Shown one piece after another: positions 19,907 to 24,606 of a stretch of DNA of 37,914 nt. Position 1 is the first letter of the stretch. Every line of letters begins with the position of its first letter. This DNA is from a virus: the IMG/VR virus record IMGVR_UViG_3300021364_000067, positions 1 to 37,914 of that record. The stretch is one strand, 5' to 3'. The position numbers and the translations under genes were made by a program. The notes under the pieces are model-generated. The model was not told the DNA's origin and ran no database searches. It saw nothing but the letters and a program-made list of their open reading frames with translations.

Positions 19907-20344
19907 TTAATTTGTTCCTTGTACTGTAAATGTTAGTTCTTGTAACTCAATTTGATTTCCAACTGTAAATTCTAAACTTAAATTAACTCTATTTTGGTCT
20001 TTAAGTTCATTTGTCATTTCCACATCAATACTTTCTATGTTAATGTATGGTAACCAATAATTTACATTTTTTGTGATTGTTTCTTGAATCCTTGATTCTA
20101 AATTATCATCAATCTGTTCGAATAATAATGATTGTAAACCAGTTCCAAACTCTGGTTGCATTATTCTTTCTCCCTTTTTTGTTAAAAGTAAATTTTTTAA
20201 ATTACTTTTTGCTTGGTCAAAAGATAAAAAGGCTTGTTCAAAAAATCCATTCTCTCCTCTTCTTAGTGGTAATGTAATACCATAAGCATAAGAATCAAAA
20301 TCTTCTGTATCCTTTGTTACCTTTCTACCAATTATATAAGCCAC
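19907..20344 (-). CDS. 25: Baseplate wedge protein gp25
   Basis: The 145-residue product is close in length to T4 gp25 (132) and has the family core NLLLTKKGERIMQPEFGTGL (51-70) followed by LLFEQIDD. gp25 is a small wedge protein that contacts gp6 and the sheath end, and it is common to contractile tails and type VI secretion. The start codon is GTG at 20344, supported by AGGAG eight bases upstream; no ATG is available nearby. It is second in the late operon that begins with 20355-20915. A strong call. Confidence 0.93.
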   Translation of the reverse strand: MAYIIGRKVTKDTEDFDSYAYGITLPLRRGENGFFEQAFLSFDQAKSNLKNLLLTKKGERIMQPEFGTGLQSLLFEQIDDNLESRIQETITKNVNYWLPYINIESIDVEMTNELKDQNRVNLSLEFTVGNQIELQELTFTVQGTN

Positions 20345-22381: not shown

Positions 22382-23647
22382 TTATTCATCTGTAAAGTTT
22401 ACTTTAGATAAGAATGTATCTAATTTACTTTTGATTGTTTTAAAATCTCCAGCATTATTCGGCCCAACTTTTGTTGGACCCGATGGAGTAGAAAATACTT
22501 GTGCATTTATAGCATCAATTAATTCTTCCATCAATTTTAATAATGTTGCTCCTTTTACGATTGGTTCATCTTCTGTTTCTGTATTAAGGTAAATCTTACC
22601 TTTAGAACCCTCACCTAATATATAAGTTGGATTATCATTTGTGGTGATTCGTACTTCTCCATTAAAATCCATTTCAGCACCATCAAATCCATTATCGATT
22701 GTAAGTTTACCATCTGAAATAAATGAATAATTTCCTTTTGAGAAAAATATCATTTCAGAATCTTTAGAAGATAAAACAATCCTACCACTATTCATTAGGA
22801 TTTGGTCTGTACCTTTTAGTTCTGGTGCTTCGTAGTATCTTACATTATCATCTGTTTCTAAAGTTACTTCTTCATTTCCCGGTGCAAATGGTATTTCATA
22901 TTGACCACTAGCAAGAACAATTGTTGAACCATCGTTTACAATATCTTCTTCAGTTACTTCATATTCTTTTAAATCTTCAACTGATTTATCACTCTGTCTG
23001 TTTCGTAAAATAATTGTAGGTGAAAATTCGTTGTTCTCATTATTATAACCACTAAATCTAATTGATTGACCAAATCTTGATTGAATTAATTTATCACCTT
23101 CATATAATCTTAAAGGATTGATTTTTTGTTTTGTAAAATATTCTCCAATTAACTGTTCTCTATCTCCATCTTCCGAATTACTATTATTTGCAATTCCTGT
23201 TGAAGATGTTTCTGAATAACTTGAAGCTTGATTTGATGATTTTTCTTCAGATGGGTTTCCTTCTAATAATGCATTTTCATATGCAGAACCTGCATTAATA
23301 TCAATATCAGGTATTCTTTTATAGTGTAATGTTCCACCAATTTCTATAAGTTGAACTATTTCATTTACTAAAGGAATCCCCTCATCTGGATTTGCTGGTG
23401 GATATGAATTTATTGTCTTTACATTATAACTGGTATCTTTACCCGTTAAAACTATTTTACAATACCCAACAACAGGTTCATTTGCCTCTACCTTATCAGA
23501 TAATTCCGATGGTAAGTTCATTGGAGCACTTTTACTATTATCCAAATGAACATAAACAACCTTACCAGTAATTGCCCCTACACTATTTTGTTTGTTTGGT
23601 TTATTGGAATAAAATGTACTATTTGATATATTTTTATATCTACTCAT
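22382..23647 (-). CDS. 5: Baseplate hub/spike-like protein (gp5-like OB and beta-helix)
   Basis: The 421-residue product opens with a region like the OB-fold of gp5/gpV spike proteins (SVGAITGKVVYVHLDNS; later VVGYCKIVLTGKD and NEIVQLIEIGGTLHYKRIP). The middle is a Ser/Asn/Glu-rich linker (about 140-180). The C-terminal third has short strand-turn units (ILMNSGRIVLSSKDSEMIFF, SKGNYSFISDGKLTID, AEMDFNGEVRITT), as in a spike beta-structure, then a helical tail. No lysozyme domain is present, unlike T4 gp5, and the adjacent CHAP gene may supply it. It overlaps the gene before it by eight bases. The gp5 link is from domain order and place, not strong identity. Confidence 0.65.
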   Translation of the reverse strand: MSRYKNISNSTFYSNKPNKQNSVGAITGKVVYVHLDNSKSAPMNLPSELSDKVEANEPVVGYCKIVLTGKDTSYNVKTINSYPPANPDEGIPLVNEIVQLIEIGGTLHYKRIPDIDINAGSAYENALLEGNPSEEKSSNQASSYSETSSTGIANNSNSEDGDREQLIGEYFTKQKINPLRLYEGDKLIQSRFGQSIRFSGYNNENNEFSPTIILRNRQSDKSVEDLKEYEVTEEDIVNDGSTIVLASGQYEIPFAPGNEEVTLETDDNVRYYEAPELKGTDQILMNSGRIVLSSKDSEMIFFSKGNYSFISDGKLTIDNGFDGAEMDFNGEVRITTNDNPTYILGEGSKGKIYLNTETEDEPIVKGATLLKLMEELIDAINAQVFSTPSGPTKVGPNNAGDFKTIKSKLDTFLSKVNFTDE

Positions 23648-24053
23648 TCTTTACCTTTTGCTTTAGTTCTTCAACTTCATTAGTTAATTCATCAACCTTT
23701 GAATCATGTTCATCTGAAACTTCTGCAATAGTATCTTCAAGTTGTGCAAGTAATTGTTCTTTTTCTTTATCGGTAAGAAAACCAGTATCTCCTTCTGATT
23801 TATCTTTTGAGGCAATCATTCTTTGTGCAATTGCTGCCATCTTAATTAGTGATTCATCGTTTCTTACTGAAGTATCAACTAAATCTTTTATGATTGGACC
23901 AATCACCGCCATATCACCAGAATGTCTAATTACCTTTTTCATCTCAGCAATCAGTTCAGAGATTCTTTGTTTCTTGTTTTGTTGGTTATCATAGATATCC
24001 CTAAACAATCCACTTAAATCTTTACCAGGAAATAATTCAAAATTTGTACTCAT
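23640..24053 (-). CDS. Small helical protein at head of hub operon
   Basis: The 137-residue product starts FELFPGKDLSGLFRDIYDNQ and continues as helix with NKKQRISELIAEMKKVIRHS, ending in a Glu/Lys coiled coil (about 95-137). There is no Cys, signal or membrane segment. I have no name for it. It sits directly before the spike-like gene and overlaps it, with a late-type motif about 20-30 bases upstream of ATG at 24053. A chaperone or assembly factor for the hub is possible. Confidence 0.7.
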   Translation of the reverse strand: MSTNFELFPGKDLSGLFRDIYDNQQNKKQRISELIAEMKKVIRHSGDMAVIGPIIKDLVDTSVRNDESLIKMAAIAQRMIASKDKSEGDTGFLTDKEKEQLLAQLEDTIAEVSDEHDSKVDELTNEVEELKQKVKNE

Positions 24054-24073
24054 GATTATACCATATTATGTTG

Positions 24074-24085
24074 TATATAAATATG
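24074..24085 (-). promoter_or_regulatory. Late-type promoter motif (CATATTTATATAC)
   Basis: The minus strand reads CCATATTTATATACAACA, differing from the others by C for T at the first base. It follows the T-run of the terminator at 24097-24116 and precedes 23640-24053. Confidence 0.55.
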
Positions 24086-24096
24086 GTAAAATAAAA

Positions 24097-24116
24097 AACC
24101 TCTCCGAAGAGAGGTT
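24097..24116 (-). terminator. Terminator with UUCG tetraloop
   Basis: Eight-pair stem AACCTCTC/GAGAGGTT closed by C(TTCG)G on the minus strand, an extra-stable tetraloop, followed by TTTTATTTT. It ends the short unit 24123-24293. Confidence 0.9.
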
Positions 24117-24122
24117 CAGTCT

Positions 24123-24293
24123 CTATTTCTCCTTATCTTCTTGAAGAGCCTGGAGATGACCTTGATTTGGTTCAAGTGCCATTAAATATTCATCGCTCAT
24201 ATCAATCCTTTCTTTTAAAGGTTCAACATATGCAACGATTGTTTCGGATGCGTTCACTCCACCCGCGACTGTATTATAAAGACCAGTCCACAC
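24123..24293 (-). CDS. Candidate 56-residue micro-protein between two terminators
   Basis: An open frame lies between TAG (24299-24297) and TAG at 24123. From GTG at 24293 it reads VWTGLYNTVAGGVNASETIV and on to a charged helical end; from the internal ATG at 24200 it gives 25 residues (MSDEYLMALEPNQGHLQALQ plus EDKEK). The ATG form has a good AAAGGA ribosome site. The GTG form has none and would be almost leaderless, since the late-type motif lies just upstream. Codons in the upstream half look protein-like, with purine-rich first positions, and that half is more GC-rich than its surroundings. A structured leader or small RNA is the alternative. I do not recognise the product. Flanking terminators make it an independent transcript. 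Confidence 0.45.
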   Translation of the reverse strand: MWTGLYNTVAGGVNASETIVAYVEPLKERIDMSDEYLMALEPNQGHLQALQEDKEK

Positions 24294-24299
24294 GGTCTA

Positions 24300-24312
24300 C
24301 ATATAAATATAA
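24300..24312 (-). promoter_or_regulatory. Late-type promoter motif abutting terminator
   Basis: The minus strand reads TTTATATTTATATGTAG. Its 5' end coincides with the T-run of the terminator at 24314-24339. It would start a ~200-base RNA that ends at 24097. Confidence 0.6.
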
Positions 24313-24313
24313 A

Positions 24314-24339
24314 AAACCCCCATATTTCTATGAGGGTTT
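24314..24339 (-). terminator. Terminator with GAAA tetraloop after holin-like gene
   Basis: Eleven-pair stem AAACCCTCATA/TATGGGGGTTT (one G-U pair) around a GAAA loop on the minus strand, then TTTTTTATATTT. It lies 36 bases after the stop at 24376. Confidence 0.88.
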
Positions 24340-24375
24340 AGTTTTTAACGCGTTTTGAAAATTAACAAGTAAATC

Positions 24376-24606
24376 TTACTTCTTAATAATATGGTAAAGT
24401 ACGAAAGCACCAACCAGTCCTAATAGACCTTCAGCACTCAAACTTCCTAAAATGCCCATGATGTTATCAACTACTGATACTTCTGGCCAGAATGGGATGT
24501 TTGCTCCTTTGAATAATACTTCAAGTACAACTCCTAAGGCAACGATACTAATACCGATTTTTGTTAGTTCATCAGCCCATGTGCCGATTTTCTTTAAAAA
24601 ATCCAT
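24376..24606 (-). CDS. Small two-segment membrane protein, holin-like
   Basis: The 76-residue product has an amphipathic start (MDFLKKIGTWADELTKIG), a hydrophobic segment at about 18-34 (ISIVALGVVLEVLF), a short loop with NIPFWPEVS, and a second hydrophobic segment at about 48-74 (IMGILGSLSAEGLLGLVGAF) ending in HIIKK. Two membrane segments, small size and a basic end fit a holin, which permits release of lytic enzyme, and similar small proteins occur in marine T4-like phages. It stands alone with a terminator after it and GGAGA before ATG at 24606. A non-lytic membrane role cannot be excluded. Confidence 0.6.
   Translation of the reverse strand: MDFLKKIGTWADELTKIGISIVALGVVLEVLFKGANIPFWPEVSVVDNIMGILGSLSAEGLLGLVGAFVLYHIIKK

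Follow-up and report, generated by a model that had tools for sequence, protein, structure and literature searches.

A movable RNA–micropeptide unit of a marine T4-like phage, with a riboswitch-like leader that looks like a new genetic switch common to phages and their likely hosts

The closest described counterparts of the locus analyzed here are the glutamine riboswitches of cyanobacteria and cyanophages (RF01739, glnA; RF01704, Downstream-peptide/Glutamine-II), structured leaders placed ahead of tiny ORFs and DUF4278 genes in small-genome marine bacteria and their T4-like phages. Cyanobacterial glutamine aptamers mainly precede DUF4278 genes (PMC6316151), Downstream-peptide RNAs precede ORFs of 17–100 codons (PMC2864571), and glutamine riboswitches occur in marine T4-like phages (PMC9004378). 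In the T4-like cyanophage P-SSM2 (L249, NC_006883), RF01739 was matched at positions 245154–245208 with 35.1 bits, the cut-off being 35, and this site is separated by another small ORF from the DUF4278 ORF that follows it. A second kind of counterpart is represented by PeSLs, reportedly described by Arbiol et al. in 2010 as mobile regulatory cassettes of T4-type phages. In these elements, a terminator and a promoter form movable boundary units letting genes enter or leave the genome, and their definition includes an early-type promoter. Additionally, preQ1 and SAM-II are pseudoknot riboswitches, in which compact H-type pseudoknots lie beside the ribosome-binding site.

The window analyzed here, i.e., the whole stretch of DNA under study, corresponds to a virus record of 37.9 kb (G000). 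Its main genes lie on the minus strand, and matches to the baseplate wedge and Nol-like carbamoyltransferase families were found in it. Its baseplate wedge protein presented 38–43% identity to the counterparts in Microcystis phage Mel-JY01, in an uncultured phage and in Flavobacterium immuto phages. The phage is classified here as T4-like and marine, and Flavobacteriaceae are probably its host group. A sequence-only reading of the same DNA had described, without assigning a strand, a unit of about 200 bases with its own motif and terminator, lying behind another terminator. All these elements were located on the minus strand, in the order terminator, promoter-like motif, structured leader of ~98 nt, 25-codon ORF and terminator, as follows:

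24376–24606, minus strand: conserved 76-aa gene upstream, bordering the insertion site on its left
24314–24339, minus strand: intrinsic terminator of the upstream 76-aa gene and leading edge of the inserted cassette, by comparison with empty sites
24302–24311, minus strand: promoter-like motif TATATTTATA (putative function), with 3 nt between its end and the first RNA stem
24293–24123, minus strand: open GTG frame, 56 codons
24267–24298, minus strand: proposed pseudoknot 1 (stem AGACC/GGUCU, loop GUGUG, second stem GACU/AGUC)
24234–24265, minus strand: proposed pseudoknot 2 (stem CGGGUG/CAUCCG, loop GAGUG, second stem AACG/CGUU)
24190–24238, minus strand: long hairpin P3, containing the Shine-Dalgarno sequence and the start codon
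24206–24211, minus strand: Shine-Dalgarno-like AAAGGA
24123–24200, minus strand: micropeptide ORF, 25 codons plus stop, MSDEYLMALEPNQGHLQALQEDKEK, intact in relatives (pN/pS 0.37)
24096–24117, minus strand: terminator of the unit
23640–24053, minus strand: conserved 137-aa gene downstream, bordering the insertion site on its right
5039, 6164, 8120, 14185, 20939, 24302 and 25201, gene strand: exact copies of TATATTTATA in the window

The exact TATATTTATA motif occurred seven times in the window, always on the gene strand and never on the other; when one mismatch was allowed, 25 sites were counted versus 21.6 expected, which is not above chance. This motif is positioned ahead of structural-gene regions and looks like a late-type promoter, and it resembles the TATATTTAT boxes that precede the RNA in host DUF4278 copies. 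The T4 late motif is TATAAATA, and the window motif is closer in look to the host boxes than to it. Terminator-like sites numbered 12 between positions 20000 and 37914, versus 6.1 expected from shuffles.

The mobility of the unit was assessed in relatives gathered by means of the 56-residue frame (11 loci), the 76-aa gene (best 80 of 193 matches) and the 137-aa gene (best 80 of 349). The flank-anchored set consisted of 68 distinct sequences, not contigs, which is a non-random sample because its members came from two scans, with the best 80 matches taken per scan, and from the peptide scan. In this set, the RNA–peptide unit was found in nine sequences, the window included, while 55 presented an empty site, i.e., a short gap holding a single terminator and a single motif, and four carried other inserts. 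The window's last terminator is the resident one because it is identical to the terminator present in L020 and other relatives with an empty site; the inserted unit carries its own terminator and promoter at its front. Moreover, the unit was found elsewhere, near the NAD synthase gene in L011, near the tail sheath gene in L012, and in L251, and an additional gene was stacked ahead of it in L003, L004 and L009. By these comparisons, the unit is best described as a movable, self-contained late gene cassette. Similar to PeSLs, a terminator stem-loop and a promoter act as boundary units of a gained gene, and the site is empty in relatives; in contrast to them, a structured leader travels along, which also exists as an element of host chromosomes, and the promoter is apparently late. 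The site where the 76-aa and 137-aa genes adjoin (24053–24376 in the window; also L003, L009, L013, L016, L022, L124 and L139) was itself observed as an insertion hot spot, with inserts of differing genes, gaps of 220 to 2014 nt, and several inserts headed by a terminator-promoter pair.

The fold suggested by the sequence-only reading was recovered with z = –4.07, better than 200 of 200 dinucleotide shuffles, and the leaders of relatives folded with z-values from –1.6 to –3.9 (–2.4 in L251). Conservation was far beyond chance, with a 73-nt core model matching the chromosomal copies at E-values of 1e-20 to 1e-11, and the core was near-invariant between phages and a bacterial chromosome. Over 19 aligned rows, 98.9% of the cells of the proposed structure were paired, a value that fell to 14–44% in the partner sliding control. 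Double changes were observed in 13 cells, versus 3.3 in shuffles, all of them in the first stem, whose covariation comprised AGACC/GGUCU, GACCC/GGGUC, AUUCC/GGAAU and GAUCC/GGAUC; these models and counts exclude L010, a truncated copy, and L233, with a decayed P2 and with CGAU instead of CGUU. In class 1, the second stems GACU/AGUC and AACG/CGUU and most of P2 were invariant, and these second stems are uninformative alone because they never vary in this class; a 4-bp match of this kind arose by chance in 7–34% of shuffles per site. In class 2 (L205 and L209), the same places were occupied by CACG/CGUG in pseudoknot 1 and CAAC/GUUG in pseudoknot 2, pairs taken here as support for the proposal of two H-type pseudoknots arranged in tandem in the leader. 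This support is weaker for pseudoknot 2, where the two classes have a common AAC/GUU core, indicating a helix shift and not a clean compensation. The class-1 model did not find L205 and L209 at the right place, and their kinship rests on layout and peptide. The micropeptide of these two diverged copies is lengthened at its C-terminus by a basic extension of about 50 residues.

The leader thus drawn would be comparable to preQ1 and SAM-II in its compact H-type pseudoknots beside the ribosome-binding site, and differs from them in the proposed presence of two different pseudoknots in tandem and in the lack of an Rfam sequence match. In 16 loci, the RNA gave no match to the glutamine riboswitch models at gathering score, and a known Rfam family was ruled out for the window, the L217 leader and these loci alike; the leader is regarded as an RNA family absent from Rfam 15. 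No description of it was found in the literature searched, mostly outside subscription journals.

In the context of downstream genes, the RNA was followed by a micropeptide gene in most copies. In L217, L218 and L238–L242, it preceded a DUF4278-type protein of 45–59 aa. The L217 and L218 proteins exceeded the Pfam cut-off for DUF4278 (PF14105) of 25.3, with scores of 30.2 and 41.4, and that of L238 was just under it (25.1). In the five further genomes represented by L238–L242, the DUF4278 gene was kept 93 nt behind the RNA start, and in L238 this gene sits between the lycopene cyclase and asparaginase genes, the upstream neighbor being the same in L217 and L239–L242. Similarly, the RNA was found ahead of hypD inside the hydrogenase maturation (hyp) operon (L223, 1498–1572), of a SusC-type TonB-dependent receptor (L224), of a 41-aa ORF (L216), and, in a different phage (L245–L247), of a 22-residue YRG peptide with likeness to DUF4278 by eye and no Pfam match. 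In L237, the RNA was directly followed by a terminator, without an ORF. A decayed micro-ORF was noticed between the RNA and hypD in L223. A conserved structured 5′ leader ahead of several genes is a trait of riboswitches that this RNA shares, and the leader RNA is described as a new, riboswitch-like family.

Regarding its distribution, the RNA was found in IMG/VR in 16 contigs besides the window (11 + 3 + L251 + L252). Some loci bear synonyms: L001 is the window, and L017, L177, L179, L186, L211 and L212 equal L005, L012, L011, L185, L202 and L207, respectively. A pattern scan of 84,980 species genomes recovered one copy, in a Bacteroidetes single-cell genome, on a contig with mnmE and followed by its own terminator. 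In a family sample of 397 genomes, the peptide profile matched nine genomes and the 73-nt RNA model 13, nine of which (11 copies) had E-values below 1e-11; the weak RNA-model matches of G359, G306, G235 and G068 (E 0.02–0.09) were treated as chance. The RNA was present in 10 of the 17 genomes (12 copies) from the genus of G343 and in 9 of the 23 from that of G150, while the order-wide and the phylum-wide draws each yielded the center genome alone (1/395 in both). The chromosomal genomes carrying the RNA are presumably Flavobacteriaceae-like. Plasmids gave no match. Short blastn pieces (25–46 nt, E 0.04–0.5) in Enterobacter, Cronobacter, Prochlorococcus and Flavobacterium phages were attributed to chance, as was viral contig L184, where the match lay in a GC-rich coding region of a phage and the remainder of the motif was missing. 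The existence of a broader family of this cis-regulatory RNA, present ahead of other genes and in flavobacterial chromosomes, was beyond the reach of the single sequence on which the earlier reading had been based.

In phage copies and L185, the hairpin behind the core contains the Shine-Dalgarno sequence and the AUG. The conserved segment paired with the start region in 12 of 12 copies of this phage/L185 type, with 12.5–13.9 expected pairs versus shuffle means of about 2–4, and 0 of 100 shuffles were as high for each copy. The diverged L251 formed the same start-codon hairpin from another sequence. For the DUF4278-type copies (L238–L242, L245), 3–11 of 100 shuffles reached the observed value. 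In the 12 of 12 chromosomal micropeptide copies tested, this pairing was not above shuffles, so that a start-codon switch common to all copies is not supported; the folds of L202–L204, which are chromosomal, placed another hairpin over the start region. Since CGUU is common to pseudoknot 2 and to the foot of the start-codon hairpin, the two would be mutually exclusive, which is the layout of a translational switch.

These findings lead to a reading that we consider likely: the cassette would carry a cis-regulatory, riboswitch-like leader taken over from the host, from which the micropeptide is made late in infection. Its direct support is provided by the conservation of RNA and ORF, the first-stem covariation, the mobility, and the use of the leader ahead of several other genes. 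The transcript would begin at or near the first stem of the compact structured leader, in which two short stems, each forming an H-type pseudoknot, would lie in tandem and be followed by the hairpin over the ribosome-binding site and start codon. The leader would most likely be a riboswitch-like sensor whose first half senses a signal, possibly a ligand, and refolding of CGUU between pseudoknot 2 and the hairpin foot would open or shut translation. The phage would have captured this control module from the host and would use it to make the micropeptide late in infection. The RNA–micropeptide unit is, by these comparative data, real, conserved and mobile, and the whole looks like a new genetic switch common to phages and their likely hosts.

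Other explanations concern what the unit encodes. The two frames named by the sequence-only reading, a 56-codon frame from GTG and a 25-codon ATG ORF behind AAAGGA, were both found, and its suggestion of an RNA leader with a micro-protein in a unit of its own was borne out by the relatives; its alternative of a leaderless, GTG-started protein did not hold. Such a 56-residue protein from GTG 24293 would agree with the promoter motif ending 8 nt ahead of this codon and with the frame being uninterrupted in the window and in six close relatives, but it is scarcely credible, and was ruled out as the gene because the frame ran through to the common stop in just 7 of the 39 distinct RNA copies, a number counted by a pattern that misses decayed copies and leaves L247, L251 and L252 outside. 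Indels broke it in near relatives (an extra base in L008, another shift in L009 and L010), and divergence abolished it in L011, L012, L185 and all other chromosomal copies, while the ATG ORF remained intact. This ORF preserved the residues A-L-x-x-N-Q-G-H, with exceptions in L207 (NQSH) and L208 (NNGH). The proposed comparison of synonymous and non-synonymous change, carried out on 14 codons around this motif in 27 copies, gave pS 0.603 and pN 0.221, i.e., a ratio of 0.37, versus 1.34 and 1.43 in the two other frames, which contained stops in 27/27 and 17/27 copies; these pooled figures are not independent because the copies are related. Third codon positions varied in 14 of the 14 codons and second positions in 5. 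The ATG ORF is therefore read as coding and as being under selection at the protein level. A trans-acting small RNA, serving as a sponge or decoy or regulating RNA or protein of the host, with the ORF being secondary, would agree with the unit's own promoter and terminator, with the ORF-less L237 copy, and with the core being more conserved than the peptide; the selection on the micropeptide, the position of the leader ahead of unrelated protein genes including hypD and the SusC-like receptor, and the retention of the DUF4278 gene at its distance in L238–L242 make this explanation unlikely.

The leader could also be a protein- or ribosome-binding element, involved, for example, in autoregulation by the micropeptide or in stabilizing the mRNA 5′ end, and not a metabolite sensor. 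Pseudoknots in the leaders of phage mRNAs serve protein control, as in T4 gene 32, and proteins can bind short stems whose loops are invariant, but the small proteins associated with the leader belong to at least two unrelated families, which autoregulation by a single peptide does not explain in all copies, and a different kind of phage contig (L198) encodes the peptide MTKLEILEALEPNQGHLNAINNEVK at 1992–2066 without the leader; this explanation is considered doubtful. The start codon of that ALEPNQGH micropeptide overlaps the stop of a sigma-factor-like gene. It is very unlikely that the leader is a diverged cyanobacterial glutamine riboswitch carried by phages, as would be suggested by the shared DUF4278 target, the shared habit of tiny ORFs, and the RF01739 aptamer ahead of the DUF4278 gene in P-SSM2. 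Neither RF01704 nor RF01739 was matched in the window (E up to 5) or the L217 leader (E up to 10), RF01704 had no match in G001, and the consensus elements CGUUCA and GGAAGUA were absent from the leader. Sequence, fold and host phylum all differ from those of the glutamine riboswitches, and the location ahead of DUF4278 genes or tiny ORFs is a functional resemblance only. The partnership between leader and DUF4278 is of a known kind, with the RNA lying outside the glutamine riboswitch families. The window micropeptide itself did not match PF14105 (E up to 1), any Pfam family (E up to 1), PHROGs or phage records, and its profile gave no match in PDB; it is assigned to a family distinct from DUF4278.

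Returning to the riboswitch-like reading, we propose only tentatively that the leader may be a riboswitch class of its own, with no sequence relation to either known glutamine riboswitch. In streamlined marine flavobacteria, it would respond to glutamine or to some other signal of nitrogen and converge on the same DUF4278 targets, and several types of phage would have adopted it for timing the production of host-like microproteins. With a nitrogen-related ligand, RNA control of the same DUF4278 proteins would have arisen independently in marine flavobacteria and in cyanobacteria, and in the T4-like phages of each. The analysis adds an RNA family missing from Rfam 15 and a family of 22–28-aa proteins, under usual gene-finding cut-offs, both common to ocean phages and likely hosts, and the short length of the leader makes it amenable to direct probing. 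At two loci (L204 and L207, about 1600–1940), the RNA was observed directly behind a pair of tRNA genes.
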